Translations under genes and position numbers: made by a program | In this document: one piece after another, positions 11,906-63,850 of the stretch | Layout: every line of letters begins with the position of its first letter | Position numbering within the stretch: the stretch's first letter is position 1 | The notes under the pieces: model-generated | Told to the model about the DNA's origin: nothing | Databases searched by the model: none | The model's input: the letters and a program-made list of their open reading frames with translations, nothing else | Assembly (NCBI GenBank): GCA_943736015.1 | Contig: OX031066.1 | Location: forward strand, 24,412,127-24,476,126 | DNA from: Tridacna crocea | Lineage: Eukaryota > Mollusca > Bivalvia > Cardiida > Cardiidae | DNA: 64,000 bases | Reading direction: 5' to 3'

Positions 11906-11932
11906 AATGAACAATGCTCTGAAAAAAGGTTT

Positions 11933-17400: not shown

Positions 17401-20202
17401 TACAAACGAAACATAATGGATGAATGTGTAGATGAATAACACAATGATGATATTTTTTGCTTTTGCATTCGACATTTCTATTTCAATTTTGTAACAAACA
17501 TCAAACAAATTATTTTCAAATTGTAATTACCAATCATGTAACAAACATCAACCAAACAATGTAATTATCTATCAACTGTGTTAAACATCAATTGTTTCCT
17601 TTAATTGATTAGCCAATATTTACTTTATACATATGCAACAAATGCAGCTGTTAAAAAATTTTGCAAATTATAAAAGGAACATTTTAAAAAAAAAAATCAT
17701 CGAAAAACACATCTTAATAACCTTAAGGTAAATAAACTATCAACTTGGTACAAATTCTTAAGTTATGGTACGAATTTGAAATATTATGGTACAAAATGGT
17801 CAATGCATGGTACGAGATGGTAATCCTTTGGTACGAAATGGTAATACAGTGTATAATATATGGTACGAAATGGTTATGGTACGAAATGTCTGTATACTGT
17901 TACTAAGGCTAGGTGCCATTGTCCCCTAGCCAAAAACCAGGTATTATGGGAAAAGGGGACCATGCTGCTTATCAGCATTTTTTTTTTACAAAAACTGCTC
18001 ATGCAAAGACATGCAAAGAAAGCTTATGCCAGTTGTACTTTCTTTCTTTGGATTTGGATAAGTCTGTCAAAAACTTAACTGCTTTATTTTTTCACTACTT
18101 TTGTTTTCTTCAGAGGTCTCTAACACCATAATTCCTAAGAAGAAAACTATTCTGAAACAATTATTTGCCAGAGAAAACTAAACCTGATCTGAATTCCAGC
18201 ATGTATCATCATCTGTGTCCACCAAGTGCTTTTTGCCAAACTGCTTAGTATCTCTATTTAGCACAGAACTAACCCTGTAAAAGAAATGAATATATACAAA
18301 ATCAAAAACTGCATGTTGACAAGTGTCACATTCATAAAAATGCCTTTTCAATCTCTTTATCAGTTTAATTTTGATTGTCATACATGTAACTTTACAATGT
18401 ATACACAGAGCTCCAGATAGAGGGAGTGATTTTGATTTTGAAATTGAAAATATTATACTCCACTAACCCATATGTTGTGGGTACTCATTAGAATCGTCTC
18501 AATGTAGGGTTTCTGAGAGAAATTATGGATGTAAAATGCCATTTCTCTCTCATATCAAGAGTTCTGACAATGTATGCAACAACAATTGTATGACGTCAAA
18601 AAGCTTGAATCATTCTACCCTACATTGGACAACCACCGAGCTACCTGGGCGAGCAAAAATCGATCAGGACATTCAAGTAGCATTAAACAATACCCTGAAC
18701 ATTTCCAAATTATGGTTAATATCATAATTTCTTGGTTAAAATTAGATGTAAAAAAGGAAATGTCTGTATGGCATGTTCTATGTTTAAAAGCTTTTCTTAT
18801 CTGGGTGAAAATATCATCAATGTGGACCGCTAGTTGGTAACCATTATTCTCCTCACAATCACAAAAAATGTCATCAGAGCATTCCTTCAGACTGAAGGTG
18901 GTCTAAGGGGTAAGTATGGTACCTTGAAACAAAAAGCTGTCTGTTTGTGTCGCAACAACCCCTTAGTGGGTGCAATCAGCCACATTGTGACGGGTCACTA
19001 GCCGTCATAGCTGAGTTGACTAAAGTCACTTTAGATAATTCTGCCATGGATACATAAACCTGTACTCAAGTGTTGGTGCAATTATGTACCAAGGTTGGAC
19101 TCATCATAGGACTTGCAGTTCAAACAGTCAAATACTACACATAGACATAGTATTGGACCAGGAATCAAGCTTGTAAATGCCCAGATATGGGGACTTTTTT
19201 TTTTTTTCAAACTGAATGGGAAAAAGGGGACTGCCATTTTGGAGGAAGTCAATATAAATCTTGCAGATGATGATTTCAGTAGAAACGTCTAAAAGATGGG
19301 TCGGCTTAAAATACACATTAGAAATTTTCCACTTAATGGATGAAAGAGAAATCCTTTGACTAGATCTACATGAAAATAGTTATGGTCTGAAATTGACCGC
19401 TGAGCAAAAAATTTTCACTACTATTTTAAGTCAACTGTCTGAAACACGTCACTCTATAATCCAAGATGGAACAGAATGGCTTAGGATGAAGCACATAGCA
19501 CAAAATCGAGAAAAAAAATAGAAAAAGGAAAGTCACTGGTCAGCCGTAGGTTAGGCTTAATAAAACCATGGTACTAAAAGGCATGAATATGGGACGAACA
19601 TGAAAAAATTATGGTCTGAAATTATTTAACCCATTACCTCACAATCCCTACTTTTGATGCCCCCGAGAAAGAAGGCTTTAGAAAACATTGTGGGAAGAGG
19701 AGAAAATGCTAGTAACCAGCATTTTCTCCTTTTCCCACAATGTTTTCTACCCATCGCAAAACAAATATATAATTTTCAGTCACTTTTATTTTGTCGTCTG
19801 CAAATGCTTTCGATTTGGACAAACCTAGAATTTTGTCGTTTGGCAATGAGTTAAACTATAGCACAAAATGGTAAAGTTATGCTAGGAAGTGCCTGGTACG
19901 AAATGGTTATGGTACGAAACGTCCGTTATTCTTGGAAATTTACTGATTTTAAGCAAACATTGTAAATTAACAATGAAAGAAGAAATGGAAATAAAGGAAA
20001 AAATTATCTACATTCTCTGTGACAGCGGTTTTCTAAACAAAGAGTGTTTTTCTCAATTTATTGAAAAATATTCTAACCGTAAGTGATGTGAATCTATCTC
20101 TAAGGAGGCTGACATGTTTATCAAAAGTGATTAGCTAATATGTCGTAACAATTTAGCGTTATAACATTACCTTTTCGTGGTCCCAGAAGGAAATATTTGC
20201 AT
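14355..20202 (-). CDS. NR2C2AP: NR2C2AP (nuclear receptor 2C2-associated protein, TRA16)
   Basis: Small protein with a discoidin/galactose-binding-like beta-sandwich; in mammals it binds and represses the orphan nuclear receptor NR2C2 (TR4). Coding exons are 20202-20171, 18274-18184, 15646-15470 and 14474-14355. Phases fit and the product is 139 aa, the length I recall for human. Seen: RVSSVLNRDTKQFGKKHL, DDTCWNSDQ, PQW near residue 44, HIQFQGGFAGREC, FYPDD and STDFFGRITIY at the C terminus, all collinear with the vertebrate protein. The first exon (10 residues) is the least certain part. The last intron has minor-spliceosome signals and AT-AG ends. Introns are large and full of MITEs, a mariner-like MITE and a 9-bp-TSD element. 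The gene is head to head with INTS14. Confidence 0.93.
14698..14873. mobile_element. TTAA MITE, truncated, joined to next
   Basis: GTTTACTAAACAACAAAATT left end; palindrome at 14808-14870; right half replaced by the next element. In the U12 intron. Confidence 0.75.
14870..15098. mobile_element. TTAA MITE
   Basis: TTAACCCTTTACCAAACAGC to TGTGGTAAAGAGTTAA; perfect palindrome 14977-15044. In the U12 intron. Confidence 0.92.
15136..15366. mobile_element. TTAA MITE
   Basis: GCTTTACAAAACATC to TGTGGTAATGGGTTAA; palindrome 15246-15314. In the U12 intron, about 100 bases from its 5' splice site. Confidence 0.9.
15470..15646 (-). CDS. NR2C2AP: NR2C2AP coding exon 3
   Basis: 177 bp, phase 0 to 0; acceptor ttgatag. 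Encodes GSPQWIQIDF, IHIQFQGGFAGREC and EFYPDDVNSTQ. It has no GT donor: the exon is followed directly by ATATCCTT, the U12-type 5' splice consensus. Confidence 0.92.
15771..15978. mobile_element. TTAA MITE, decayed, joined to next
   Basis: CAACTCTTTACCACTTGAC left end; palindrome eroded (15880-15945); right TTAA shared with the next copy. Confidence 0.8.
15975..16201. mobile_element. TTAA MITE, GCTCGTAACGAGC hairpin variant
   Basis: TTAACCCTTTCCCAAACAAG to TTTGGGAAAGGGTTAA. Hairpin GGAGAAATTGCTCG TAACGAGCAATTTCTCC at 16040-16082. Confidence 0.92.
16205..16437 (-). repeat. tRNA-derived SINE
   Basis: Minus strand: GTTGGTTAGCTCAGTTGTTAG (A box) and GAGTTTGATACC (B box). Body shared with the copy at 44518. 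It follows directly on a TTAA MITE. Confidence 0.8.
16457..16712. mobile_element. Mariner-like MITE with ~63-bp terminal inverted repeats
   Basis: Begins TACTCTCTCAAAAAAGAAAC and ends with its exact complement, flanked by TA/TATA. The TIRs match over about 63 bases. The terminus is typical of Tc1/mariner-type MITEs. Lies in the NR2C2AP intron between exons 2 and 3. Confidence 0.85.
16738..16800. repeat. TTAA MITE half arm
   Basis: CCAGCATTTTCTCCTTTTCC then CACAATGTTTTC; the left arm is absent. Confidence 0.7.
17150..17898. mobile_element. 749-bp element with inverted arms of TGGTACGAAATG repeats
   Basis: Left arm holds six or more spaced copies of CATTTCGTACCAT; right arm holds the same motif inverted (ATGGTACGAAATG). 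Both ends show GACATTTCGTACCATAAC within the terminal inverted repeat. A perfect 9 bp direct repeat GTTACTAAG flanks it (17141-17149, 17899-17907). 9 bp duplications fit Mutator/Foldback-type elements. No coding capacity. It lies in an NR2C2AP intron (exons 2 to 3). Confidence 0.8.
17935..17985. repeat. Decayed TTAA MITE hairpin
   Basis: GGGAAAAGGGGACCATGCTG..CAGCATTTTTTTTTT; only the hairpin core is visible. Confidence 0.45.
18184..18274 (-). CDS. NR2C2AP: NR2C2AP coding exon 2
   Basis: Acceptor cttttacag, donor GTTTAG. Encodes VSSVLNRDTKQFGKKHL and then DDTCWNSDQ, almost identical to the vertebrate protein. Confidence 0.95.
19626..19854. mobile_element. TTAA MITE
   Basis: TTAACCCATTACCTCACAAT to TTTGGCAATGAGTTAA; palindrome 19681-19749. 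In NR2C2AP intron 1. Confidence 0.92.
19888..19926 (+). repeat. Solo fragment of the TGGTACGAAATG element
   Basis: CTGGTACGAAATGGTTATGG followed by TACGAAACGTCCG; matches the right end of the 17150-17898 element. Confidence 0.7.
20171..20202 (-). CDS. NR2C2AP: NR2C2AP coding exon 1 (predicted)
   Basis: Short exon starting ATGCAAATATTTCC and ending in phase 2 at donor AAAAG|GTAATG. It was chosen because it supplies AG to complete the arginine codon of RVSSVL and gives a protein of expected length. Its residues are not conserved enough to prove it. Confidence 0.55.
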
Positions 20203-22224: not shown

Positions 22225-22453
22225 TTAACCCATTACCACACAATTCCTACTTATGACACCCCTGAGAAAGAAGCCTTTAGAAAACATTGTGGGAAAAGGA
22301 GAAAATGCTGGTAACCAGCATTTTCTCCTTTTCCCACAATGTTTTCTACCCTTCACATAACAAATTTCAAATTTTCAGTCACTTTTATTTTGTCGTCTGC
22401 AAATGCTTTGGATTTGGACAAGCCTAAAATATTGTCGTTTGGTAATGAGTTTA
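22225..22453. mobile_element. TTAA MITE
   Basis: TTAACCCATTACCACACAAT to TTTGGTAATGAGTTTA; perfect palindrome 22280-22348. Confidence 0.92.
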
Positions 22454-22539
22454 TTGATTTATGGAATGTTCAGATTGTCCCTTTTTGCATGGCAGGTCAC
22501 ATACTTTAAAAAGGCTATATACTCTCATCAACTGGACTT

Positions 22540-22770
22540 TTAACTCTTTAACAAACGACAAAATTTTAGACTGGTCCGAATTGAAACCACTTGCAGATCT
22601 ATGTCAAAATAAACATAACTCACAGATCGAAATTTGTTTCCAACAAGGTAGAAAACATTGTGGGAAAAGGAGAAAATGCTGGTTACCAGCATTTTCTCCT
22701 TTTCCCACAATGTTTTCAAAAGGCCTCTCTCTTTGTAATGGTATATGTTAAAAAACATTGTGTGGTAAAA
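22540..22770. mobile_element. TTAA MITE
   Basis: TTAACTCTTTAACAAACGAC to TGTGTGGTAAAACTC; perfect palindrome 22649-22716. Ends about 50 bases before the INTS14 5'UTR acceptor. Confidence 0.9.
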
Positions 22771-29500: not shown

Positions 29501-32500
29501 CATTTTTCATCAAAGGAGAAATGGAATTTTATTAAATTGCATGATTAGTTAGTTTATGCACAAGTACTGTATTGCAGTTTCTGTGGAAATTAGAACATGC
29601 ATAAGGTCAGTTTTTGGTAATTCGCGGAATTTTTTAATCATAAGGTAAGTTGGTCCTTTGAGCCACAGAAAATTGACATAAAGCAAAATAGCAAAAAGTT
29701 TCAGACCATGTTAGCCTGCGCAGATTGCGCAGGCTGACATGAGTTGATTCTTTTTTTTCCAGATGCATTAAGCCCCCTTTTCACAGAGCATGGGCCAATT
29801 AGAAATATTGTTTGTTTTATATATTCAGGTATTGACGCAGTGTCTTGGCTGGGTAATTTAAACTATTTGACTCCAATATCTGATTTTTCTGAAAACCCGT
29901 ATGGAAAAGACGATGATCGCTCACCATTTCCTGTGAGGCCAAAAGAAAAGAGAAGTTATGCTCAAAGCTGTGTGGTGTGGATCAAAGCTGTTGGATTGCA
30001 GGTTAGTAAATCTAGACTTACTGCAAAATAAAAACTCTGAAGTTGTAATCACTGTTGCAGAGATCATTATACAAGTTAATCTCTAGTAACCATAAACTTA
30101 TAACCTTATAACTCATCATTAATCTGTTGGCCCTGAAAGTTAAAAAAAAATTGTCTAACTCTTTACCAAACAACAAAATTTTGGACTAGTCCATATTGAA
30201 AGCATATGCACACAACAAAATAAATGTCAATCACAAATTTAAGTTTGATTTGGAAAGGGGAGAAACATGGTGAGAAAAGGAGAAATGCTGGTTACCAGTT
30301 GAACAAGTTATATGGGATTGTTACCTATATGATTTTTAGCTCACCTGAGCACATAGTGCTCAAGATGAGCTATTGTGATCGATCGTTGTCCGGCGTCCGT
30401 CCGTGCGTCCGTCCGTGCGTCTGTCCGTCCGTCCGTGAACAATTACTTAAAAATTATTCTCCTCTGAAACCGCCCAACAGATTTCAGTGAAACTTCACAG
30501 AAATGATCCTTAGGTGATGCACTTTCAAAATACTTCAAAGATTTGAATTCCATGGAGAACTCTGGTTGCCATGGCAACTGAGAGAAAAAACTTTAAAAAT
30601 CTTCTCGTCCCAAACCGTAAGGGCTAGAGCTCTCATATTTTGCATGTAGCATCATCTAGTGACCCTCTACCAAAATACTTCAAATTATGGCCCTAGTGTT
30701 GAAAATGGCCCTATGTTGTGGATTCTTGGATTTCACATGGAGATAAAGAAGGAAATCTTTAAAAATTTTCTTGTCCCAAACCATAAAGGCTAGAGCTCTC
30801 ACATATGGCATGTAGTATCATCTAGTGGCCCTCTATTAAAATACTTCAAATAATGGCCCTAGTGTAGAAATTGGCCCTATGTTGTGGGTTCTCGGATTTC
30901 ACATAGAGATAAAGAAGGAAATCTTTAAAAATCTTCTTGTCCCAAACCGTAAGGGCTAGAGCTTTCATATTTGGCATGTAGCATCATCTAGTGACCCTCT
31001 ACCAAAATACTTCAAATTATGGCCCTAGTTTGAAAATGGCCCTATGTTGTGGGTTCTCGGATTTCACATAGAGATAAAGAAGGAAATCTTTAAAAATCTT
31101 CTAGTCCCAAACCATAAGGGCTAGAGCTCTCATATATGGCATGTAGTATCATCTAGTGGCCCTCTACCAAAATACTTCAAATAATGGCCCTAGTGTGGAA
31201 ATTGGCCCTATGTTGTGGGTTCTCCGATTCCACATAGAGATAAAGAAGGAAATCTGTAAAAAACTTTATGTCCCAAACCTTAAGGGCTAGAGCTTTCATA
31301 TTTGGCATGTAGCATCATCTAGTGGCCCTCTACCAAAATACTTCAAATTATGGCCCTAGTTTGAAAATGGCCCCATGTTGTGGGTTCTCGGATTTCACAT
31401 ATGGTCGTCTGCAAATTGGTCCAAATTGGACAAGGCCACAGTTTTCTTGCGTGAAAAAGAGTTTAGCATGTCTAACACAAATCATGGTTTTTACTACCCT
31501 GTTAAAGGAGAACAACACAAAGGACAATGCCTTTTGAAAAAAAAAATGTGGAAAAAGTAGAAAATGCTGGTCACCAGCATTTTCTACTTTTGTAACAGTT
31601 TACAACCCCTTCAATGCAAATTTTATTTTTTTTTTCATATTTATCTTGTCGTCTACAAATACTTTAAACAGGTTTTTAATTTTGTTGTTTGGTAAACTGT
31701 CAAAGCAGTCACTTTAAAATAGCTCTTTAAAATGCCCTTTACTAAACAATCCCTGTTTTTAGGAACCTGAGACAAACCTTTTCAAAACATCGTAGGAAAA
31801 GGAGAAAATGCTGGTAACCAGCATTTTCTCCTTTTCCTACAATGTTTTCTACCCTTCCGGAAACTAGTTTCTAATTGTACTCACATCAATTATATCATCT
31901 GCAAATGCTCTTCTCCCTATTTTTCAACAACTACTGTGGATTCATATAATTTCGTTGGTATGAAATTTCGTGGATTTTTCAAATTCGGCATTTTCGTTGG
32001 ACCGTAAATTCGTTGATTTTCCATTTCCAAACGAATTTTTTTTGTATAAAAAAATCTTAACTGACCATTAATAAAGTGTGTGAAAGAAAGAAAAAAAGAT
32101 AACATAAGACCGGACTCGATCGATGACAAGTATACAGGTATCGAATGTAAAGGGTGTAAAGTTTATGACACTTATCTGATAATCTAATCGCCGGTCTCGA
32201 GTCTATCAATTAAGACGTGCGTAATTATTAACAATTTACACCGTTATTATTTAATACTGTAGTCACAGTTTACAATCAAATTTTAAGCCGTAAAAGATAC
32301 GACGACGTTTTCAGAATCGTCTGCTTAGAAACTGCTGTCTTCCGAAGCTACCCTTCCCTCATGTCTGGGTCACTTAGGAAAACAAGACTGCTTCTCGCAT
32401 ATTCGCCGACATATTGTGACAGATGAAAAGAGATCGTTTGTTTAGAGCGCGAGTCGTTACTGACATGATACGTTTTACCTTGTTGTCCAAAAGTGTGTCC

Positions 32501-37227: not shown

Positions 37228-37464
37228 AGTATATTCAACTCCTTTCCAAACAACAATATTTTTAGCTTGTCCAAATCCAAAGCATTTGCCGACAACAAAG
37301 TAAAAGTGACTGAAAATTTGAAAATTGTTTTGTGAATGGTAGAAAAGCATTGTGGCAAAAGGAAAAAATGCTGGTTACCAGCATTTTCTCCTTTTCCCAC
37401 AATGTTTTCTAAATGTTTCTTACTCTGGGTCGTCAAACGTAGGGATTGCGTGGTAATGGGTTAA
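37228..37464. mobile_element. TTAA MITE, joined to next
   Basis: AACTCCTTTCCAAACAAC to CGTGGTAATGGGTTAA; palindrome 37340-37408. Confidence 0.9.
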
Positions 37465-43803: not shown

Positions 43804-43998
43804 TCAATTTTCTCCAGAAAAATGTTTTTTTAGCCCTGTTACACACAAATCCGAGTCTCTACGAGCTTGAAAAGATAAAGGCTTACGAAAACATCGTGGG
43901 AAAAAGGACAAAACACTGGTAACCTTTCTTTTTTTATAACCACGTCAGACAGAAATCGTCATTAGAACTATATTTGAGTCATATTCTGGTAAGAGAGG

Positions 43999-44227
43999 GC
44001 TTACCCCTTTCCCAAACAAGCCCTGGTTTTTACTTGTCTGCAGTACAAGTCTTTAGAAAACACTGTGGGAAAAGGGGAAATTGCTCGTAACGAGCAATTT
44101 CTCCTTTTCCCACAGTGTTTTCCCAGCCTATCCGAAAACTTTCTGCCATTTTTATCAAATTCAAAATCGTCATCTGAAAACACTTCAAGTTTGGGACAGT
44201 ATAAAATTTGTCATTTGGGAAAAGTTG
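43999..44227. mobile_element. TTAA MITE, GCTCGTAACGAGC variant
   Basis: TTACCCCTTTCCCAAACAAG to TTTGGGAAAAGTTG; hairpin 44060-44123, same loop variant as 15975. Confidence 0.88.
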
Positions 44228-44272
44228 ATGCATCTCCGTGACCCATAATACTAAGCATCCTTGAAATGGATC

Positions 44273-47530: not shown

Positions 47531-47884
47531 TTAACCCCCTTTTCACACAGCATGGCTCGTTTGTATTGGGGAATTATTTCTTTCCTGTCGTAGCGGTCAT
47601 ACAAATCCATATCAAATCCATTAACCCATGCATGGTAATGTTTCGTTCATACAAAATCCAAGATATCGTGAGATAAAGGAGGAAAAAGTAGAACAATAAG
47701 TATCAATGTTGTAGGCATTCAATTGATGAAGAAAAAGCCATATAAAGGTCTATTTGACAAATGAATAATTTACACAATTAAGGTGCTCTGTTATCCATCG
47801 AATCTCATGACAGACAGTGGTTGTAAGAGTTAGCTATACGTACGGAATACCGTAAGGGCCATCGCCTATGATATGTGTTCATTT

Positions 47885-48560
47885 TAAACGCGTGTGTTAC
47901 CATCGTACTGTCGTGTTATCGTTATCGCACTATCGTTTTATAGCCATCGCACTGTCGCGTTATCGTCATCGCACTATCGCCTTATCATCATCGTGCCAGC
48001 GCGTAATCGTCATCGTACTTTCGTGTTATCGTAATCGTACTATCGTATTATCACCATCGCATTATCGCGTTATCATCATCACACTATCGCGTTATCATCA
48101 TCGCACCATCGCTTTATCATCATCGCACTATCGCACTATAGTCATCGCACTATCGCACTATCGTTATCGTACTATCGGCTTTCGGTGTGCATGCTCATAG
48201 GGAAATTTCTCCTTCATGCGACAAGATAGATTCAACGTCGGGTAACGAAAGTAGGCATAAACATTATTAATTTTGATTATTTAGGCAATTAATATTTTTT
48301 TAAAGCTTTATGAGGTATTCACTGGTTGGTTTCTATTACTGTATAGATCTAGTCTCATGGTATGTCCTGAAGATCTTGCATGCCCAAGAGCACCGGAAAG
48401 CGATAGTACGATGACGATAACGCGATAGTACAATTACAATGACGCGATAGCACGATGGCGATAGCACGATGACGATAAGGTGATAGCACGATGACGATAA
48501 CACGATAGTGCGATAGTGATAATGCGATATTACGATGACTATAACACGATAGTGCGATGC
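47885..48560. mobile_element. Inverted minisatellite element (CGCACTATCG... arms)
   Basis: 47885-48180 is a degenerate ~22 bp tandem repeat (CATCGCACTATCGCGTTATC). 48396-48560 is the same repeat inverted (CGATAGTACGATGACGATAA). The inversion extends into the spacer (GGCTTTCGGTGTGCATGC against GCATGCCC..CACCGGAAAGC). A 110-codon ORF across the left arm is only repeat translation. Confidence 0.7.
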
Positions 48561-49560
48561 TGATACTCTCTTTTAAAATCTACAAATTCAAAGGTGATGG
48601 CCCGAATGGTATTCCTTATATACGGGGGTGTATGAATTACGAGAAATGTCATTGTCGATTTCGTTTCGTTCCAATATCCGGTTTGAACAGCAAAACAACT
48701 TCAGTTGGAAGTAACTTATTCGTCGAGGCTTCGATTTTTGACCTATATTATCGACAAATCCCATTTTATTTTGAAGAAATAATATTATTATTTCAAGAAT
48801 GATGAAACCATACATACAGATTTGCAGCTATTGACTTGGTCATGTCAAGCAGATCAGCGTCCAACTTACATTTTATACATGTATCAACTCTTTATTTGGC
48901 TAACAGCTGAAAGAGGTATTATTTGAATTTGTAACTCAAACCTTGCGACGATTCTAGTTTATACTCATAATATAGGGTTTTAGTAAGTGAATTATTTTTT
49001 TCTTTTTCGAATACAAACAAACCCAGAAAATAAATTATTCTTTGTCAAATCTGAGAAAATGCTTTTTCCGTTGATTAGTTTCCAGAAGAGCAATGGCAAA
49101 AATTGTACTAAACTCAGTCTTCTCGTTAACTGCTTGTTATAAACTGGAATTTTCATGAAAGAAGATAAACCGGTTTTTGGCAAATTTACAGCTCTTGCAG
49201 TGAAAAAAAAAATCAGGAAAAAAAAAAGTAATCAGAACAGTAATCGCAAAGCGTGGGTGAAAGACAGTGCTAAATACTCTGTGCAGTCGTTTCCCTGGTC
49301 TACACTGTTCGAAATTTTTAAGCCTATAGGTTCGCCCCGTAACCCAACGAGAGAAAACAATACGACATCGATTTTCTCAACACTTGTGATTCCGTATAGT
49401 TTATGGATTCTGTCGAGAATCATAAATAGCATAGGACGAATAAAAGTCTACAGCCCATAACTCTTATATAAAGACGGAGGCTTCCGAGATTGGCCGAACA
49501 GCCATTACGAGAAAGTCGCGATGTTACACGATATTTACCGATAAGGTAGAGGCTGTAATA
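48561..49560. other. No clear feature
   Basis: No convincing gene. Short overlapping ORFs on both strands at 49155-49460 do not resemble any family I know and lack codon or splice support. Confidence 0.4.
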
Positions 49561-50300: not shown

Positions 50301-50379
50301 TCTGCGCATGTCATATTCTTCGAAGATTCGACCTGTCTGCAATGACGCATCACACACACACCCCTCCCATATGGAGTGC

Positions 50380-50640
50380 AACACGCGAAAAGGGTCATTC
50401 GGACATTTGCGTAAAGTGTCGTCTCGGATCCGCCTGCGCAGTCCGCAGAGGCTAATCCGAAACGACACTTTCCGATTTTATGTGATTTTCTGTTTTACGC
50501 AAGTCTACTGTAGCACAAAATCTAATGTAGTCGTAAAGTGCCGTCTCGGATTAGCCTGCGCGGACTGCGCAGGCTAATCCGGGACGACGCTTTACGCAAA
50601 TGTCCGAATGCACCTTTTCGCGTGTTGCACTCCATATTGG
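50380..50640. repeat. Paired 'GTGTCGTCTCGGATTAGCC' hairpins
   Basis: Two palindromes (50412-50475, 50535-50600) of the GCCTGCGCAGTCCGC type within a larger inverted repeat: GCAACACGCGAAAAGG at 50391 and CCTTTTCGCGTGTTGCACTC at 50612. A common bivalve MITE type. Confidence 0.8.
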
Positions 50641-51074
50641 GGGATTGTAGTAACACGCGCTATATAATAGCAATGGTGAGAAAAGCTTTTATCAGTACAT
50701 TTGAGGAGAAATCAGGCCTGAATTAGCTCCAGATTTATCTAAACTGCTGATCATAGCTGAATGAATCGCACCAGGTATAGCGTTTTATTGAGTAAACGTT
50801 TATTTTAGTTCAAGAAATTCAAAGTAACGGTAGATGCGTAGAAGAGTAGTCCGGTTCTGTACCCAGGATGCCAAAATTAGATGTGAATTTGTAGAATGCC
50901 ATCTAGCGGGAGATAATGGTATTCACCCTTCATTGATCAGAACATTATTTATCTTAGTTTCCAGAAGTTTCTAGATTTGAAAGTAACGGAACTTCTGATT
51001 GGCTAAACCATGTGATACATTCAACTTTAGAAAAATCTCGAAGTACAAGACTAAGAACGGTAGGTGAATATGGA

Positions 51075-51580: not shown

Positions 51581-51588
51581 TGTGCTCT
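51581..51588. other. Left target-site duplication of the giant element
   Basis: TGTGCTCT; matches the right flank AGTGCTCT at 7 of 8 positions. Confidence 0.55.
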
Positions 51589-54500
51589 GTAGCAACCAGT
51601 TTTGCAATAAAAACGAGAATTGCAATAAATTATTGCAAAACTCGTTGCGATGACAGGAACTTTATTACATTTGACTTCACAACCAGTTTTGCAATAAAAA
51701 CGAGAATTGCAATAAACCCATTATATGGACCATGTATGATCGTTTTCTAGTCAAAACCAAATTCAAATACAATTTAATGTTAAATGGGAGTATATAAGAC
51801 CCAAATTAAGTTACAGAAAGTGTGCTTCAAAGACCAATAGAAACATTTCAGGCTAAAGACTATTAAGACTGAAATCATTTGGAAACTGTCATAAAATCTA
51901 TTAGATGACGTAAACAGCATGAAATTTGGATCTGTTCAGAAACAATATGTTTTAAACCAGTATTGCAGGAAATTATTGCAAAACTCGTTGCGATCACAGG
52001 AACTTTATTAGATTTGACTTCACAACCAGTTTTGCAATAAAACCGAGAATTGCAACAAACTCTATTATATGGAACATACTTGATCGTTTTCTAGTAAAAA
52101 CCAATTTCAAATACAATTTAATGTTAAATGGGACTATGCAAGACCCAAATTAAGTTACAGAAAGTGTGCTTCAAGGACCAATAGAAACATTTTAGGCTAA
52201 ACACTATTAAGGCTGAAATCATTTGGAAACTGTCATAAAGTCTATTAGATGACGTAAACAGCATGGAATTTGGATCGTTTCAGAAATAATACGTCTTAAA
52301 CCAGTATTGCAGGAAATTATTGCAAAACTCGTTGCGATGACAGGAACTTTATTAGATTTGACTTCACAACCAGTTTTGCAATAAAACCGAGAATTGCAAT
52401 AAACTCATTATATGGACCATACTTGATCGTTTTCTGGTCAAAACCAAACTGAAATACAATTTAATGTTAAATGGGACTATATAAGACCGAAATTAAGTTA
52501 CAGAAAGTGTGCTTTAAAGACCAATAGGAACATTTCAAGCTAAACACTATGAAGGCTGAAATAATTTGGAAACTGTCAGAAAGTCTCATAGTTCACGTAA
52601 ACAGCATGGAATTTGGATCGGTTCAGAAACAATTCGTCTTAAACCAGTATTGCAGGAAATTATTGCAAAACTCGTTGCGATGACAGGAACTTTATTAGAT
52701 TTGACTTCACAACCAGTTTTGCAATAAAACCGAGAATTGCAATAAACTCATTAAATGGACCATATTTGATCGTTTTCTAGTCAAAACCAATTTCAAATAC
52801 AATTTAATGTTAAATGGGACTATGTAAGACCCAAATTAAGTTACAGAAAGTGTGCTTCAAGGACCAATAGAAACATTTCAGGCTAAACACTTAAACACTA
52901 TTAAGGCTGAAATCATTTGGAAACTGTCAGAAAGTCTATTACATGACGTAAACAGCATGGAATTTGGATTGTTTCAGAAACAATACGTCTTAAACCAGTA
53001 TTGCAGGAAATTATTGCAAAACTCGTTGCGATGACAAGAACTTTATTAGATTTGACTTCACAACCAGTTTTGCAATAAAAACGAGAATTGCAACAAACTC
53101 ATTATATGGACCATACTTGATCGTTTTCTAGTCAAAACCAATTTAAAATACAATTTAATGTTAAATGGGACTATGTAAGACCCAAATTGACTTACAGAAA
53201 GTGTGCCTCAAAGACCAATAGGAACATTTCAGGATAAACACTATTAACGCTGAAATCATTTGGAAAATGTCAGAAAGTCTATTAGATGAAGTAAACAGCA
53301 TGAAATTTGAATTGTTTCAGAAACAATACGTCTTAAACCAGTATTGCAGGAAATTATTGCAAAACTCGTTGCGATGACAAGAACTTTATTAGATTTGACT
53401 TCACAACCAGTTTTGCTATAAAAAAGGAGAATTGCAACAAACTCATTATATGGACCATACTTGATCGTTTTCTAGTCAAAACCAATTTAAAATACAATTT
53501 AATGTTAAATGGGACTATGCAAGACCCAAATTAAGTTACAGAAAGTGTGCTTCAAGGACCAATAGAAACATTTCAGGCTAAACACTATTAAGGCTGAAAT
53601 CATTTGGAAACTGTCAGAAAGTCTATTACATGACGTAAACAGCATGGAATTTGGATCGTTTCAGAAACAATACGTCTTTAACCAGTATTGCAGGAAATTA
53701 TTGCAAAACTCGTTGCGATGACAGGAACTTTATTAGATTTGACTTCACAACCAGTTTTGCAATAAAAACGAGAATTGCAATAAAGTCATTCTATGGACCG
53801 TACTTGATCGTTTTCTGATCAAAACCAACTTCAAATACAATTTAATGTTAAAGGGGACTATGTAAGACCCAAATTACGATACAGAAAGTTTGCTTCAAGG
53901 ACCAATAGGAACATTTCAGGCTAAACACTATTAAAGCTGAAATCATTTAGAAACTTTCAGAAAGTCAATTAGTTGACGTAAACAGCATGGAATTGGAATC
54001 GGTTCAGAAATAATACGTCTTAAACCAGTATTGAAGGAAATTATTGCAAAACTCGTTGCGATGACAGGAACTTAATTACATTTGATTTCACGACCAGTTT
54101 TGCAATAAAAACGAGAATTGCAATAAACTTATTATATGGACCATACTTGATCGTTTTCTGGTCAAAACCAACTTCAAATACAATTTAATGTTAAAGGGGA
54201 CTATGTAAGACCCAAATTAAGTTACAGAAAGTGTGCTTCAAGGACCAATAGAAACATTTCAGGCTAAACACCATTAAGGCTGAAATCATTTGGAAACTGT
54301 CACAAAGTCTATTAGATAACGTAAACAGCATGGAATTTGGATCGTTTCAGAAACAATACGTCTTAAACCAGTATTGCCGGAAATTATTGCAAAACTCGTT
54401 GCGATGACAGGAACTTTATTAGATTTGACTTCACAACCAGTTTTGCAATAAAACCGAGAATTGCAACAAACTCTATTATATGGACCATACTTGATCGTTT

Positions 54501-56083
54501 TCTGGTCAAAACCAAATTGAAATACAATTTAATGTTAAATGGGACTATGTAAGACCGAAATTAAGTTTCAGAAAGTGTGCTTCAAGGACCAATAGAAACA
54601 TTTCAGGCTAAACACTATTAAGGCTGAAATCATTTGGAAACTGTCAGAAAGTCTATTACATGACGTAAACAGCATGGAATTTGGATCGTTTCAGAAACAA
54701 TACGTCTTTAACCAGTATTGCAGGAAATTATTGCAAAACTCGTTGCGATGACAGGAACTTTATTAGATTTGACTTCACAACCAGTTTTGCAATAAAAACG
54801 AGAATTGCAACAAACTCATTATATGGACCATACTTGATCGTTTTCTAGTCAAAACCAATTTCAAATACAATTTAATGTTAAATGGGACTATGTAAGACCC
54901 AAATTAAGATACAGAAAGTGTGCTTCAAGGACCAATAGAAACATTTCAGGCTAAACACTATTAAGGCTGAAATCATTTGGAAACTGTCAGAAAGTCTATT
55001 ACATGACGTAAACAGCATGGAATTTGGATCGTTTCAGAAACAATACGTCTTAAACCAGTATTGCAGGAAATTATTGCAAAACTCGTTGCGATGACAGGAA
55101 CTTTATTAGATTTGACTTCACAACCAGTTTTGCAATAAAAACGAGAATTGCAATAAAGTCATTCTATGGACCGTACTTGATCGTTTTCTGATCAAAACCA
55201 ACTTCAAATACAATTTAATGTTAAAGGGGACTATGTAAGACCCAAATTACGATACAGAAAGTTTGCTTTAAAGACCAATAGGAACATTTCAGGCTAAACA
55301 CTATTAAAGCTGAAATCATTTAGAAACTTTCAGAAAGTCAATTAGTTGACGTAAACAGCATGGAATTGGAATCGGTTCAGAAATAATACGTCTTAAACTA
55401 GTATTAAAGGAAATTATTGCAAAACTCGTTGCGATGACAGGAACTTTATTAGATTTGACTTCACAACCAGTTTTGCAATAAAACCGAGAATTGCAATAAA
55501 CTCATTATATGGACCATACTTGATCGTTTTCTAGTCAAAACCAATTTCAAATACAATTTAATGTTAAATGGGACTATGTAAGACCCAAATTAAGTTACAG
55601 AAAGTGTGCTTCAAGGACCAATAGGAACATTTCAGGCTAAACACTATTAAGGCTGAAATCATTTGGAAACTGTCATAAAGTCTATTAGATGAGGTAAACA
55701 GCATGGAATTTGGATCATTTCAGAAACAATACGTCTTTAACCAGTATTGCAGGAAATTATTGCAAAACTCGTTGCGATGACAGGAACTTTATTACATTTC
55801 ACTTCACAACCAGTTTTGCAATAAAACCGAGAATTGCAATAAACTCATTATATGGACCAGACTTGATCGTTTTCTGGTCAAAACCAAATTGAAATACAAT
55901 TTACTGTTAAATGGGACTATGTAAGACCGAAATTAAGTTACAGAAAGTGTGCCTCAAAGACCAATAGAAGCATTTCAGGCTAAACACTATTCAGGCTGAA
56001 ATCATTAGAAAACTGTCATTAAGTCTATTAGATTACGTAAACAGCATGGAATTTGGAAAGTTTCAGAAACAATATGTCTTAGA
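51589..56083 (+). repeat. Left arm: ~344-bp satellite, 13 units
   Basis: The landmark ATTGCAAAACTCGTTGCGAT recurs near 51629, 51970, 52317, 52660, 53010, 53355, 53697, 54040, 54385, 54727, 55072, 55413 and 55757, steps of 341-350 bp. Units differ by roughly 5-10 percent. A diagnostic variant (ATTGGAATCGGTTCAG, no indels) recurs at about 53990 and 55365, four monomers apart. Confidence 0.95.
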
Positions 56084-59000
56084 AGACTTAAAGCGTTTCA
56101 GAAACGATCTAAATTTCATGCTGTTTATGTCATCTAATAGACTTTATGACAGTTTCAAGATAATTTCAGCCATTATAGTGTTTAGCCTGAAATGTTCCTA
56201 TTGGTCTTTGAAGCACACTTTCTGTAACTTAATTTAGGTCTTACATAGTCCCATTTAACATTAACTTATACTTGAAGTTGGTTTTGATTAGAAAAAAATT
56301 ATTGCAATTCTCGTTTTTATTGCACAACTGGTTGTGAAGTCAAATCTAATAAAGTTCCTGTCATCGCAACGAGTTTTGCAATAATTTCCTGCAATACTGG
56401 TTTAAGACGTATTGTTTCTGAACCGATCCAAATTTCATGCTGTTTACTTCATCTAATAGACTTTCTGACAGTTTCCAAATGATTTCAGCCTTAATAGTGT
56501 TTAGCCTGAAATGTTTCTATTGGTCCTTGAAGCACAAAATCTGTAACTTAATTTGGGTCTTACATAGTCCCATTTAACATTAAATTGTATTTGAACTTGG
56601 TTTTGGCCCGAAAACGATCAAGTATGGTCCATATAATGACTTTATTGCAATTCTCGGTTTTATTGCAAAACTGGTTGTGAAGTCAAATCTAATAAAGTTC
56701 CTGTCATCGCAACGAGTTTTGCAATAATTTCCTGCAATACTGGTTAAAGACGTATTGTTTCTGAACCGATCCAAATTCCATGCTGTTTACGTCAACTATG
56801 AGAGTTTCTGACAGTTTCCAAATGATTTCAGCCTTAATAGTGTTTAGCCTGAAATGTTCCTATTGGTCTTTGAAGCACACTTTCTGTAACTTAATTTCGG
56901 TCTTACATAGTCCCATTTAACATTAAATTGTATTTCAATTTGGTTTTTACCAGGAAACGATCAAGTATGGTCCATATAATGAGTTTATTGCAATTCTCGG
57001 TTTTATTGCAAAACTGGTTGTGAAGTGAAATGTAATAAAGTTCCTGTCATCGCAACGAGTTTTGCAATAATTTCCTGCAATACTAGTTTAAGACGTATTA
57101 TTTCTGAAACGATCCAAATTTCATGCTGTTTACATCATCTAATAGACTTTCTGACAGTTTCCAATGATTTCAGCGTTAATAGTGTTTAGCCTGAAATGTT
57201 TATTTTGGTCCTTGAAGCACACTTTCTGTAACTTCATTTCGGTCTTACATAGTCCCATTTAACATTAAATTGTATTTTAAATTGGTTTTGACTAGAAAAC
57301 GATCAAGTATGGTCCATATAATGAGTTTATTGCAATTCTCGATTTAATTGCAAAACTGGTTGTGAAGTGAAATGTTATAAAGTTCCTGTCATCGCAACGA
57401 GTTTTGCAATAATTTCCTGCAATACTAGTTTAAGACGTATTATTTCTGAAACAATCCAAATTCCATGCTGTTTACGTCATCTAATAGACTTTCTGACAGT
57501 TTCCAAATGATTTCAGCCTTAATAGTGTTTAGCCTGAAATGTTTCTATTGGTCCTTGAAGCACACTTTCTGTAACTTAATTTGGGTCTTACATAGTCCCA
57601 TTTAACATTAAATTGTATTTGAAATTGGTTTTGACTAGAAAACGATCAAGTATGATCCATATAATGAGTTTGTTGCAATTCTCGTTTTTATTGCAAAACT
57701 GGTTGTGAAGTCAAATCTAATAAAGTTCCTGTCATCGCAACGAGTTTTGCAATAATTTCCTGCAATACTGGTTAAAGACGTATTGTTTCTGAAACGATCC
57801 AAATTCCATGCTGTTTACGTCATGTAATAGACTTTCTGACAGTTTCCAAATTATTTCAGCGTTAATAGTGTTTAGCCTGAAATGATCCTATTGGTCTTTA
57901 AAGCACACTTTCTGTATCTTAATTTGGGTCTTACATAGTCCCCTTTAACATTAAATTGTATTTCAGTTTGGTTTTGACCAGAAAACGATCAAGTATGGTC
58001 CATATAATGAGTTTGTTGCAATTCTCGGTTTTATTGCAAAACTGGTTGTGAAGTCAAATCTAATAAAGTTCCTGTCATCGCAACGAGTTTTGCAATAATT
58101 TCCTGCAATACTGGTTTAAGACATTTTATTTCTGAACCGATCCAAATTTCATGCTGTTTACGTCATCTAATAGACTTTATGACATTTTCCAAATGATTTC
58201 AGCATTAATAGTCTTTATCCTGAAATGTTCCTATTGGTCTTTGAGGCACACTTTCTGTAACTTAATTTGGGTCTTACATAGTCCCATTTAACATTAAATT
58301 GTATTTGAAGTTGGTTTTGACTAGAAGACGATCAAGTATGGTCCATATAATGAGTTTATTGCAATTCTCGTTTTTATTGCAAAACTGGTTGTGAAGTCAA
58401 ATCTAATAAAGTTCCTGTCATCGCAACGAGTTTTGCAATAATTTCCTTCAATACTAGTTTAAGACGTATTGTTTCTGAACCGATTCCAATTCCATGCTGT
58501 TTACGTCAACTAATTGACTTTCTTAAAGTTTCTAAATGATTTCAGCTTTAATAGAGTTTAGCCTGAAATGTTCCTATTGGTCTTTAAAGCAAACTTTCTG
58601 TATCGTAATTTGGGTCTTACATAGTCCCATTTAATATTAAATTGTATTTGAAGTTGGTTTTGACTAGAAAACGATCAAGTATGGTCCATATAATGAGTTT
58701 ATTGCAATTCTCGTTTTTATTGCAAAACTGGTTGTGAAGTCAAATCTAATAAAGTTCCTGTCATCGCAACGAGTTTTGCAATAATTTCCTGCAATACTGG
58801 TTAAAGACGTATTGTTTCTGAACCGATCCAAATTCCTTGCTGTTTAGGTCAACTATGAGAGTTTCTGACAGTTTCCAAATGATTTCAGCCTTAATAGTGT
58901 TTAGCCTGAAATGTTCCTATTGGTCTTTGAAGCACACTTTCTGTAACTTAATTTCGATCTTACTTAGTCCCATTTAACATTAAATTGTATTTGAAATTGG

Positions 59001-61912
59001 TTTTGACTAGAAAACGATCAAGTATGGTCCATATAATGAGTTTGTTGCAATTCTCGTTTTTATTGCAAAACTGGTTGTGAAGTCAAATCTAAGAAAGTTC
59101 CTGTCATCGCAACGAGTTTTGCAATAATTTCCTGCAATACTGGTTTAAGACGTATTATTTCTGAAACGATCCAAATTCCATGCTGTTTACGTCATCTAAT
59201 AGACTTTCTGACCGTTTCCAAATGATTTCAGCCTTAATAGTGTTTAGCCTGAAATGTTTCTATTGGTCCTTGAAGCACACTTTCTGTAACTTAATTTGGG
59301 TCTTACACAGTCCCATTTAACATTAAATTGTATTTCAATTTGGTTTTGACCAGAAAACGATCAAGTATGGTCCATATAATGAGTTTGTTGCAATTCTCGT
59401 TTTTATTGCAAAACTGGTTGTGAAGTCAAATCTAATAAAGTTCCTGTCATCGCAACGAGTTTTGCAATAATTTCATGCAATACCAGTTTAAGACATATTG
59501 TTTCTGAAACGATCCAAATTTCATGCTGTTTACGTCATGTATTAGACTTTCTGACAGTTTCCAAATGATTTCAGCCTTAATAGTGTTTAGCCTGAAATGT
59601 TCCTATTGATCTTTGAAGCACACTTTCTGTAACTTAATTTAGGTCTTACATAGTCCCATTTAACATTAAATTGTATTTGAAGTTTGTATCGACTAGAAAA
59701 CGACCAAATATGGACCATATAATGAGTTTATTGCAACTCTCGTTTTTATTGCAAAACTGGTTGTGAAGTCAAATCTAATAAAGATCCTGTCATCGCAACG
59801 AGTTTTGCAATAATTTCCTGCAATACTGGTTTAAGACATATTGTTTCTGAAACGATCCAAATTTCATGCTGTTTACGTCATCTAATAAACTTTATGACCG
59901 TTTCCAAATGATTTCAGTCTTAATGGTGTTTAGCCTGAAATGTTTCTATTGGTCTTTGAAGCACACTTTCTGTAACTTAATTTGGGTCTTACATAGTCCC
60001 ATTTAACATTAAATTGTATTTCAATTTGGTTTTGACTAGAAAAGGATGAAGTATGGTCCATATAATGAGTTTATTGCAATTCTCGTTTTTATTGCAAAAC
60101 TGGTTGTAAAGTCAAATGTAATAAAGTTCCTGTCATCGCAACGAGTTTTGCAATAATTTCCTTCAATACTAGTTTAAGACGTATTGTTTCTGAACCGATT
60201 CCAATTCCATGCTGTTTACGTCAACTAATTGACTTTCTTAAAGTTTCTAAATGATTTCAGCTTTAATAGAGTTTAGCCTGAAATGTTCCTATTGGTCTTT
60301 AAAGCAAACTTTCTGTATCGTAATTTGGGTCTTACATAGTCCCATTTAATATTAAATTGTATTTGAAGTTGGTTTTGACTAGAAAACGATCAAGTATGGT
60401 CCATATAATGAGTTTATTGCAATTCTCGTTTTTATTGCAAAACTGGTTGTGAAGTCAAATCTAATAAAGTTCCTGTCATCGCAACGAGTTTTGCAATAAT
60501 TTCCTGCAATACTGGTTAAAGACGTATTGTTTCTGAACCGATCCAAATTCCTTGCTGTTTAGGTCAACTATGAGAGTTTCTGACAGTTTCCAAATGATTT
60601 CAGCCTTAATAGTGTTTAGCCTGAAATGTTCCTATTGGTCTTTGAAGCACACTTTCTGTAACTTAATTTCGATCTTACTTAGTCCCATTTAACATTAAAT
60701 TGTATTTGAAATTGGTTTTGACTAGAAAACGATCAAGTATGGTCCATATAATGAGTTTGTTGCAATTCTCGTTTTTATTGCAAAACTGGTTGTGAAGTCA
60801 AATCTAAGAAAGTTCCTGTCATCGCAACGAGTTTTGCAATAATTTCCTGCAATACTGGTTTAAGACGTATTATTTCTGAAACGATCCAAATTCCATGCTG
60901 TTTACGTCATCTAATAGACTTTCTGACCGTTTCCAAATGATTTCAGCCTTAATAGTGTTTAGCCTGAAATGTTTCTATTGGTCCTTGAAGCACACTTTCT
61001 GTAACTTAATTTGGGTCTTACACAGTCCCATTTAACATTAAATTGTATTTCAATTTGGTTTTGACCAGAAAACGATCAAGTATGGTCCATATAATGAGTT
61101 TGTTGCAATTCTCGTTTTTATTGCAAAACTGGTTGTGAAGTCAAATCTAATAAAGTTCCTGTCATCGCAACGAGTTTTGCAATAATTTCATGCAATACCA
61201 GTTTAAGACATATTGTTTCTGAAACGATCCAAATTTCATGCTGTTTACGTCATGTATTAGACTTTCTGACAGTTTCCAAATGATTTCAGCCTTAATAGTG
61301 TTTAGCCTGAAATGTTCCTATTGGTCTTTGAAGCACACTTTCTGTAACTAAATTTAGGTCTTACATAGTCCCATTTAACATTAAATTGTATTTGAAGTTT
61401 GTATCGACTAGAAAACGACCAAATATGGACCATATAATGAGTTTATTGCAACTCTCGTTTTTATTGCAAAACTGGTTGTGAAGTCAAATCTAATAAAGAT
61501 CCTGTCATCGCAACGAGTTTTGCAATAATTTCCTGCAATACTGGTTTAAGACGTATTGTTTCTGAAACGATCCAAATTTCATGCTGTTTACGTCATCTAA
61601 TAAACTTTATGACCGTTTCCAAATGATTTCAGTCTTAATGGTGTTTAGCCTGAAATGTTTCTATTGGTCTTTGAAGCACACTTTCTGTAACTTAATTTGG
61701 GTCTTACATAGTCCCATTTAACATTAAATTGTATTTCAATTTGGTTTTGACTAGAAAAGGATGAAGTATGGTCCATATAATGAGTTTATTGCAATTCTCG
61801 TTTTTATTGCAAAACTGGTTGTAAAGTCAAATGTAATAAAGTTCCTGTCATCGCAACGAGTTTTGCAATAATTTATTGCAATTCTCGTTTTTATTGCAAA
61901 ACTGGTTGCTAC
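56084..61912 (-). repeat. Right arm: same satellite inverted, 17 units
   Basis: Reverse-complement monomers from the inversion point to the right terminus. The complementary landmark ATCGCAACGAGTTTTGCAAT recurs every ~343 bp. Contains a near-identical five-monomer higher-order duplication (58437-60151 and 60152-61866). Confidence 0.95.
58437..61866 (-). repeat. Higher-order repeat: five-monomer block (~1715 bp) in tandem
   Basis: Variant monomers recur in the same order at a 1715 bp offset: CCTTGCTGTTTAGGTCAAC (58830, 60545), GTCATGTATTAGAC (59526, 61241), GTATCGACTAGAAAACGACC (59685, 61399). The two blocks are almost identical, so the duplication is recent. Confidence 0.9.
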
Positions 61913-61920
61913 AGTGCTCT
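61913..61920. other. Right target-site duplication of the giant element
   Basis: AGTGCTCT immediately outside the terminal GCTAC. Confidence 0.55.
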
Positions 61921-62523: not shown

Positions 62524-63850
62524 CAAGACGGCCAAGATGGCCCTGGATCGCTCACCTGAGTTTTTTTAGGTCTTGAAACTTCCAAACGATTTTGAAGCGG
62601 TCACCTGTAACAGTCATTTCAAAATCTGTCACTCCAGCCCTACTATCATCACCACAGCAATGATTTTGATGAATCAGAATTAAAAAAAAAAAAAAAAAAA
62701 AAAGGAGGTAGATCACCAAATGACAATCTCTTGAAGAAAAGCACATCCTCAATAGTGACCACAAACATAAGTCAAGCAAAAGCACCATATGCTGGTGCCA
62801 ACAATTGGCTGTTGTTTTTCGAAGGATCAAAATTTCACAAACAGTTTTTGAAAAAGGATCATCCAAGGAACATTTGTCTTAAATTAGTTTGAAATCTGAC
62901 CAGCGGTTTCATAGAAAAAGAATTGTTGAGAATTTATCGGTTTCCGTATGGTGCAAGTAGCCCCCAGTCACCAGAGCCATGTTTCTTGAAGGATCAAAAT
63001 TTTGCGAACAATTTTTGGAAAGGGTCACCAAAGATTATATCTGTGAAATTATTTCAAAATCTGACCAGCCATTTCAGAGAAGAAATATTTAAGAATTTCT
63101 TCATCTCTGTGTTGAGCAAGTAGCCCACATTCACCAGAGCCATGTTTCTTGACCTATCAAAATTTAGCGAACACGTTTTGAAAAGGGTCACCCAAGGAAC
63201 ATCTCTGTAAAATTATCTTAAAAATCTGACCAGCCGTTTCAGAGAAGAAGAATTTTCAAGAATTTCTTCATTTCCATATAGTGCAAGTAGCCCCCATTCA
63301 CCAAAGCCATGTTTCTTGACGGATCAAAATTTCGCAAATAAACTTTGAAAAGGGTCACCCTAGGAATATCTTTGTGAAATTAGCTCAAACTCTGATCATT
63401 GGTTTCAGAGAAGAAGAATTTTAAAGAATTTGTTCATTTCCCTATAGTGCAAGTAGCCCCCATTCACAAGAGCTATGTATCTTGACGGATCAAACTTTCG
63501 CGAGCACTTTTTTTAAAAGGGTCACCCTTGACAACATCTTGATTAAATTATTTTAAAATCTGACCAGCGGTTTCATAGAAGAAGATTTTTAAAAAATTTC
63601 TTAGAACATTCCATTTGGTTGCCATGGCAACCAGAGTTTTTGATGGAATCAAATTCTGTGAACAATTCTTAAAGAGGACCTCCCAAGGAACATCCTAGCC
63701 AAGCTTAGTCCAAAGTGGCCCAGTGGTTTAGGAGGAGTTGATGTTTAAAGAAATGTTGACGACGCACGGCTCACGACGGACGACGCACGACGGACACCGG
63801 GTGATCCTAAAAGCTCCCCTTGAGCACGTTGTGCACAGGTGTGCTAAAAA
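62524..63850 (+). repeat. Long mollusc dispersed repeat, second copy
   Basis: Starts AACAAGACGGCCAAGATGG..ATCGCTCACC and ends GAGCACGTTGTGCACAGGTG after a CGACGGACGACGCACGACGG tract. Four or more ~165 bp tandem units, each with GCCATGTTTCTTGA and TCTGACCAGC. Confidence 0.8.

Follow-up and report, generated by a model that had tools for sequence, protein, structure and literature searches.

Architecture of the palindrome

The window, a stretch of 64,000 nucleotides of the Tridacna crocea genome (contig OX031066.1), contains a palindrome of 10,326 bp (51588–61913) in which 13 and 17 copies of a 343-bp monomer face each other across a 2-bp dyad. Tandem Repeats Finder reported two arrays of this monomer (51611–56081, 13 copies, and 56299–61890, 16.3 copies); cut at unit starts, these resolve into 13 forward and 17 reverse units, in agreement with the thirty units in one insertion given in the initial annotation. 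The left arm of tandem 343-bp units occupies 51588–56081 on the forward strand and the right arm 56082–61913 on the reverse strand. Both arms end at a unit boundary at the palindrome centre, GTCTT-AG-AAGAC (56076–56087), consistent with the earlier description of opposed arrays meeting with almost no spacer. Being long and built in tandem from a homogeneous monomer, the arms qualify as satellite DNA. The innermost unit of the right arm is shorter by 24 bp and shows the greatest divergence, and unit comparison revealed a five-unit (1715 bp) duplication on this reverse-strand arm (units R1−R5 and R6−R10, 58460–61889), in which R2−R5 and R7−R10 are 99–100% identical and R1 and R6 98% identical.

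The two arms share their outer terminus, as had been noticed at the outset: TGTAGCAACCAGTTTTGCAATAA lies at the outer end of each, with 98.5% identity over the outer 135 bp and 93.3% over the next 225 bp. On the left (51588–51646, forward strand) the terminus consists of TGTAGC, the 18-mers AACCAGTTTTGCAATAAA and AACGAGAATTGCAATAAA and an inverted TTATTGCAAAACTCGTT, while the right terminus (61855–61913, reverse strand) has the same modules and ends in GGTTGCTACA. This end block had been taken for added sequence, which is true of one extra 18-bp module, but the block is otherwise a monomer start. Versions of the 18-bp module occur four times in each satellite unit, once in degenerate and once in inverted form. 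A left-end query against the rest of the window yielded just 11–15 bp words (E 0.31 or worse).

When the ends are parsed as TGTAGC../..GCTACA, a perfect 6/6 flank repeat, GTGCTC (51582–51587 and 61914–61919), lies just outside TGTAGCAACC..GGTTGCTACA. A flanking direct repeat of 7–8 bp had been reported; the target site duplication is indeed present, but it is not of that length. The 8-bp version matches at 7/8 positions, and the best parse in the window alone has a simulated P of 0.003. The other copies settle the duplication at 6 bp and rule out an 8-bp (hAT, P or Mutator) reading.

A dispersed family with 6-bp target duplications

The genome-wide search for the terminus at other array ends that the initial annotation had suggested returned 222 such ends (≤2 mismatches) in the 1.05-Gb genome to which the window belongs, against one in a reversed-pattern control. 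Copies were found on many contigs, and four open reading frames (ORFs) from other contigs (ENA) enter the same terminus from different flanks. The palindrome recurs with other unit numbers at 14 further loci, making 15 giant copies that span 5.3–10.3 kb, with 5–18 units counted per arm. The centre junction is retained with few substitutions in 13 of the 15 and is absent from C1a and C17. Copies of 70–238 bp are also present in the family. Across 48 ends, positions 1–60 deviate from the consensus by 0.3–0.5%, compared with 4.5–7.3% at positions 143–380, and the first ~60 bp, comprising three 18-bp modules, are nearly invariant, though for the first 22 bp of pattern-found ends this conservation comes partly from the selection of matches.

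Flank duplications were looked for at the other copies as well. Perfect 6-bp target duplications border 23 of the 28 end-paired copies examined, a non-random sample that excludes six further loci with a single end within the stretch read; among the giant copies the figure is 14 of 15. Insertion shows a preference for RAGCTY, and the centre of the duplication is GC in 39 of 42 strand readings (first 21 of the perfect-duplication copies). The five exceptions are C8c, C8d and C11c (5/6 each), C9b (2/6 in register) and C8b (1/6), which carries a 169-bp flank duplication instead. C8c and C8d perhaps represent one event, since their flanks are closely similar. The search for empty sites was successful for one copy only, C5, for which three repeat copies aligned as paralogous empty sites, 91–92% identical and with the target hexamer itself matching at 5/6 or worse. 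Inverted arms of tandem repeats with little or no middle, target duplications at the flanks and dispersed insertions with empty sites are all features of Foldback-like elements, and the description of the locus as a giant element of this kind stands.

Evidence for transposition of whole arrays

The left and right ends of the 15 giant copies are clearly split into two types. In subfamily A (10 copies), divergence is 0.94% between left ends, 1.09% between right ends and 4.25% between left and right ends within a copy; the corresponding values for subfamily B (5 copies) are 0.70%, 1.10% and 4.25%. The split is absent from seven older copies (C1c, C4, C6, C8e, C8f, C9b and C13) among nine added later. 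The order of units was compared between loci with the outermost and innermost units dropped and 200 shuffles per comparison. Same-arm order was conserved at P ≤ 0.01 in 80 of 106 comparisons (64/90 in subfamily A, where 26 fell short of the threshold, and 16/16 in subfamily B), which are non-independent because copies are shared among them, compared with none of 106 for opposite arms (0/90 and 0/16). The right arm of C2a, for example, is in register with both C5 and C2b over 12/12 units. The end divergence pattern and same-arm unit order therefore indicate that multi-unit palindromes were duplicated in one piece rather than built up again from small insertions. Judging by these sequence comparisons, multi-unit palindromes are transposed as whole units between loci, and the earlier suggestion that the satellite spreads to new chromosome sites by means of this element agrees with the whole-palindrome copies and their conserved unit order.

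An alternative is that each site first received a small inverted-repeat element, with a single unit in each arm, whose arms then expanded tandemly in place. Growth of this kind has been described for Galileo (PMC3573991) and proposed for Tetris (PMC4079207) in the excerpts of those reports consulted, and the varying unit number between arms and copies, the recent five-unit duplication in the window and the existence of very short copies would all suit it. It does not predict a unit order common to loci in the same arm only. Furthermore, arm labels do not cluster on a tree of the window monomers, and the left arm as a single clade is rejected (p-AU 5e-7); because the arms are intermixed in this way, they were not each grown from their own single unit. 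We consider this alternative very unlikely: from the sequences, growth in situ from one unit per arm is rejected as the sole cause, and it probably operates alongside transposition of whole arrays without being able to take its place.

Assemblies are known to go wrong at long palindromes, so a hairpin read or mis-join might be suspected. However, the arms are unequal in length, and the structure stands at 15 loci whose flanks are independent and, at 14, carry matching duplications. A hairpin-read artefact and a recent mirror duplication are both rejected, as mirrored units resemble each other no more closely (0.927) than any left-right pair does (0.930), and the probability that the palindrome is an artefact appears negligible. 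Scarcely more plausible is a chance inversion of an ordinary satellite with spread via segmental duplication or ectopic recombination: the flanks of C8b, C8c and C8d might be so explained, but not the common termini, the 6-bp duplications with a target preference or the empty sites. Finally, the same element could owe its mobility to a Mutator- or P-type transposase, like other Foldbacks, leaving an 8-bp duplication with one mismatch. The 7/8 match in the window taken alone would allow this, and the duplications of Tetris, Tm1 and Galileo are reported as 7–10 bp (PMC4079207, PMC3169594, PMC3573991, all consulted in excerpt); with a 6-bp duplication across copies and TG..CA ends, we think it improbable.

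It is thus our firm expectation that the window element is a copy of a dispersed, non-coding Foldback-like DNA transposon family, whose whole body is formed by a satellite array folded on itself, which moves as an entire palindrome under a transposase supplied in trans, and whose arms change unit number between jumps. The moving unit would be the complete palindrome, 5–10 kb in those copies that were read from end to end. Its ends (TGTAGC and three 18-bp modules) would be bound by a transposase produced elsewhere, which would excise the element and, with cuts staggered by 6 bp, insert it at sites resembling RAGCTY. Copy number would be gained by gap repair, and arm units gained and lost between jumps, probably by unequal exchange. 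As every unit carries versions of the 18-bp module, the arms may serve as arrays of extra binding sites. A bolder form of the proposal, to which we give an even chance, is that of a self-mobile satellite: the array would be the transposon, with putative transposase-binding modules in every unit, longer arms tolerated or favoured, and an integrase-type transposase (TG..CA, 6-bp) seeding complete arrays of dozens of units at new sites, while growth between jumps would be secondary. Satellites would in that case disperse by ordinary transposition.

It has long been asked how satellite DNA comes to occupy new chromosome sites. Because multi-unit arrays keep their order across loci between target duplications, transposition of a complete kilobase array can be read from the assembly. 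Palindromes of 5–10 kb are expected to be unstable; the present copies suggest that a cut-and-paste system can carry them. Mirrored satellite blocks of 5–10 kb would be whole transposons at many chromosome sites, a direct route for satellite spread. Precedents, in the excerpts consulted, are satellites growing out of a Foldback in Tetris (PMC4079207) and short arrays riding on Helitrons in bivalves (PMC5139131). What appears new is that the satellite array is itself the mobile unit, within an otherwise known Foldback-like kind.

Known elements and a putative partner transposase

Comparisons with known systems draw on excerpts of the cited reports. Tetris, a Foldback of Drosophila virilis with three complete copies, has arms of tandem ~220-bp repeats, and fiber-FISH reveals long repeat arrays inside an element; like the present family it is non-coding, linked to satellite arrays and built of inverted tandem-repeat arms whose repeat and outer end have a stretch in common (PMC4079207). 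Its arms reach at most 1.7 kb, whereas those of the window copy are 4.5 and 5.8 kb, and it has separate outer flanking and middle domains where the window copy has neither, its end being a modified unit. The satellites of Tetris are inferred to grow from the element, whereas here arrays moved with their unit order (PMC4079207). Galileo (P superfamily) also has long inverted arms, with tandem repeats in those of one group; the arms of one copy vary independently, and secondary transposase sites have been proposed. It differs in its arms, which hold two or three repeats and measure at most about 1.26 kb, and in having a known transposase (PMC3573991). The initial annotation had compared the locus with these two elements; close kinship to either is not supported, the duplications being 6 bp here against 8–10 bp in Tetris and 7 bp in Galileo. 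Tm1 (Mutator/Foldback, Meloidogyne) resembles the family in its inverted arms of short tandem repeats and its non-autonomous members, but its repeats are about 14 bp long, its duplications are mostly 9 bp and show no clear target consensus, its outer motifs are asymmetric, and members that encode a transposase are known (PMC3169594). The Pearl/Helitron satellites of bivalves are likewise tied to mobile elements, but as short arrays within them, no large head-to-head arrangement being mentioned in the excerpts (PMC8268682, PMC5139131). A literature search of titles and abstract starts found no bivalve Foldback of comparable size.

With its TG..CA ends and 6-bp stagger, the family would be matched more closely by integrase-type (GingerRoot/IS3EU-like) transposases than by the Mutator or P groups to which known Foldbacks belong. 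GingerRoot and IS3EU, groups defined by their own transposase, share the 6-bp duplication; TG..CA is an occasional, rarer form among GingerRoot ends, whereas IS3EU and most GingerRoot elements have TA..TA (PMC10045372). The listings consulted and the excerpts of that report mention no Foldback form among these integrase-type elements (PMC10045372). Ginger1 and Ginger2 were rejected: TGTAG fits their TGTNR ends, but their duplications are 4–5 bp. Viral and prokaryote collections held 0 exact-pattern matches to the terminus or the monomer, and an 18-base piece of the terminus gave none in full-text literature.

An autonomous transposase with the same termini, anticipated at the outset, was not found in the stretches inspected, and Pfam named no transposase in 10 of the 11 window ORFs of at least 120 aa. 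A 719-aa ORF adjoining one end (L051), which we take to be Penelope-like, and a presumably gypsy-integrase-like piece (L052) had no Pfam match above the cut-off. Copies on C13, C8, C2 and C1 have a common middle domain, which in C13 and one C8 copy contains what we read as a Tc1-like remnant, rejected as the partner transposase. The 18-kb C13 copy also includes a 6-kb non-satellite stretch, rejected in the same role; its 1133 aa ORF, of endonuclease-RT-RNaseH type, presumably marks a nested LINE.

Architecture of the window element

In the element at window 51588-61913, a 343-bp monomer forms two head-to-head arrays (13 units in the left arm, 17 in the right) that meet at a palindrome centre at 56076-56087 (GTCTT-AG-AAGAC). 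Both arms start with TGTAGC, followed by 18-bp modules AACCAGTTTTGCAATAAA and AACGAGAATTGCAATAAA and then an inverted module, TTATTGCAAAACTCGTT; an ordinary unit starts with one degenerate module, AACCAGTATTGCAGGAAA, and the same inverted module, with the direct module pair recurring from approximately position 70. The element terminus thus equals the start of a unit plus one extra module. At their inner ends, both arms stop at the dyad, on a unit boundary. The longest stop-to-stop frame within the element is at most 89 codons, so it is non-coding.

Outside the symmetrical ends (TGTAGC..GCTACA), the flanks read GTGCTC on both sides (6/6), while an 8-bp reading matches at 7/8; with all parses of the window flanks tried, random flank pairs match as well in 0.3% of simulations. 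The initial annotation was right about the satellite palindrome and its flanking duplication, once the claimed length of 7-8 bp is corrected to 6 bp.

Unit identity between the window element's arms is about the same as within them, and 55 of 86 non-consensus alleles (those present in at least two units) occur in both arms. In a tree of 28 units (L13 and R17, from the left and right arm respectively, were left out), arm label takes 9 changes where shuffled labels take 9.3, and monophyly of the left arm is rejected (p-AU 5e-7). Mirrored unit pairs are no closer (0.927) than all pairs (0.930). Units R1-R5 and R6-R10 represent a recent duplication in the right arm.

Ends, target duplications and empty sites across the genome

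The 1.05-Gb assembly (31 contigs) was searched with a 401-bp left-end query, yielding at least 312 matches, a lower bound because 14 of 194 first-look candidates were scored. The pattern GTAGCAACCAGTTTTGCAATAA, with up to two mismatches, occurs 222 times, versus once for its reversed control, confirming that array ends elsewhere share the terminus. We read 14 loci, taken among the matches listed for the left-end query, in full with their flanks; with the window, these comprise 15 giant copies (named by contig) of 5,291-10,326 bp (median 8,775). The outer ten bases are identical at 28 of their 30 ends, with one substitution each in C7b and C8a. Nineteen further places were picked, not at random, from approximately the first hundred listed ends: 11 were two-ended in the stretch first read, C4 and C6 after an extended read, and six one-ended places (L049, L051-L055) were not counted among paired copies.

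The 6-bp flanks are identical in 14 of the 15 giant copies. The exception, C8b (C8:39676607-39685131; L035-L036), has no 6-bp duplication; beyond its right end, after two extra bases, lies an exact 169-bp copy of the left flank ending in CTGCTC, probably the product of aberrant insertion or repair. Target duplications, which the initial annotation expected at other array ends, are perfect in 21 of 26 paired copies, or 23 of 28 once C4 (C4:30621790-30631749; GAGCCT) and the outer ends of C6 (C6:29037416-29052378; TATGTT) are added. The remaining five are C8b, C9b (2/6 in register), C8c and C8d (5/6 each, flanks much alike) and the 70-bp C11c (5/6). The 21 perfect sites read RAGCTY, with a central GC in 39 of 42 strand readings.

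An empty site had also been proposed as a check. When the 15 joined flanks were compared with the sequence at hand, only C5 gave a match spanning the insertion point (71%, window 43972-44257). The joined flanks of C5 lie near the edge of a repeat, other copies of which match uninterrupted across that point. The three empty sites aligned (L058-L060) are paralogous, with 91-92% identity, and to the left of the insertion point the alignments extend over 31-38 bp, counting the target; their hexamer is one base off AAGCTT in two cases and more in the third. Paralogous empty sites were obtained for one copy, with the target hexamer never exact.

In 24 copies (48 ends), the ends diverge from their consensus by 0.26% at positions 1-24 and by 0.46% at 25-60 (positions 1-22 are biased where copies came from the pattern search; 25-60 lie outside that pattern), with divergence rising to 1.2-1.3% at 61-142 and 4.5-7.3% at 143-380. 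Across 21 inner units of the window element, 23 of 105 columns are variable in the corresponding box, versus 88 of 238 (P 0.006). The conserved ends and box fit a putative recognition of the modules by a transposase.

Several copies are unusual. The approximately 15-kb C6 copy (L050, L062) carries an extra forward end at 29042525 within the array, resembling the insertion of one element into another. An 18-kb copy at C13:7506750-7524817 (L039-L040; duplication ATGACC) contains an insert that we take to be a nested LINE of approximately 6 kb, and its middle domain is common to copies on C8, C2 and C1. Copies of 70-238 bp with family ends (C8:43440257-43440494, C8:43452254-43452470 and C11:52114950-52115019) are probably minimal forms of the family. 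At C14:33970400-33973300 (L049), two reverse ends lie 1.1 kb apart with units ahead of each, probably tandem or nested partial copies.

Transposition of whole arrays

Every giant copy has one left-type and one right-type end, and forward units on one side and reverse on the other, unmixed (15/15). In subfamily A (10 copies), divergence is 0.94% left-left and 1.09% right-right, versus 4.25% between the two ends within a copy; in subfamily B (5 copies), the values are 0.70%, 1.10% and 4.25%. The nine later-added copies are mixed: C9a and C15 partly group with subfamily A, and seven older copies (C1c, C4, C6, C8e, C8f, C9b and C13) have no split into end types. The centre junction is common to 13 of the 15 giant copies, missing in C1a and C17. 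Across loci, 64 of 90 same-arm comparisons in A and 16 of 16 in B show conserved unit order (P<=0.01), versus 0 of 90 and 0 of 16 for opposite arms (200 shuffles each, outermost and innermost units dropped; comparisons share copies and are hence non-independent). In subfamily B, 12 of 12 right-arm units are in register for both C2a versus C5 and C2a versus C2b.

From the end types, unit order and shared centre junction, we conclude that palindromes whose arms already comprised many units were copied to numerous sites; the arms also gained and lost units. The interpretation of the palindrome as a Foldback-like transposon holds, and is stronger than the window sequence alone could show. The element is of the Foldback kind; what is new is that the unit mobilised is the satellite array as such.

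Known transposon systems, other assemblies and neighbouring repeats

The family's 6-bp duplications and TG..CA ends disagree with the published criteria consulted for Ginger1/2 (4-5 bp), Tetris (8-10 bp), Tm1 (8-10, mostly 9 bp) and Galileo (7 bp). By the criteria consulted, GingerRoot duplications are 6 bp long and the ends occasionally TG..CA; for IS3EU, 6 bp is usual, with TA..TA ends. No transposase bearing the element's ends was seen in the stretches examined, so a GingerRoot- or IS3EU-like enzyme is the best lead rather than an assignment.

Six short ORFs on ENA-source contigs match satellite frames, four of them entering the terminus from differing flanking residues; this suggests that the family is shared with at least one further assembly, probably that of a close relative. 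One ORF has 94% identity to an ENA protein and 41-46% to Ruditapes, Mercenaria and Mactra proteins, on which basis we regard the source as a heterodont clam.

The window holds two other tandem-armed inverted elements. An inverted pair of arrays of 22-bp units (47835-48624) includes an element at 47841-48618 with ends TACGGAATACC / TAAGGAATACC, whose TA..TA termini and perfect 6-bp duplication (TATACG) fit IS3EU. The other (17141-17907) has 21-bp CATTTCGTACCATA units and a perfect 9-bp duplication, GTTACTAAG, the usual length in Mutator-like Foldbacks. A repeat family of approximately 230 bp occurs in both orientations (11029-11256, 22225-22451, 37237-37464 and other places), alongside several palindromes of 265-478 bp (22265-22732, 11685-12151, 50362-50643 and 16452-16716). 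Short arrays of 161-167 bp repeats (30587-31401, 13279-13905 and 62813-63602) match bivalve pearl/Helitron-type satellites in size and may be related to them.
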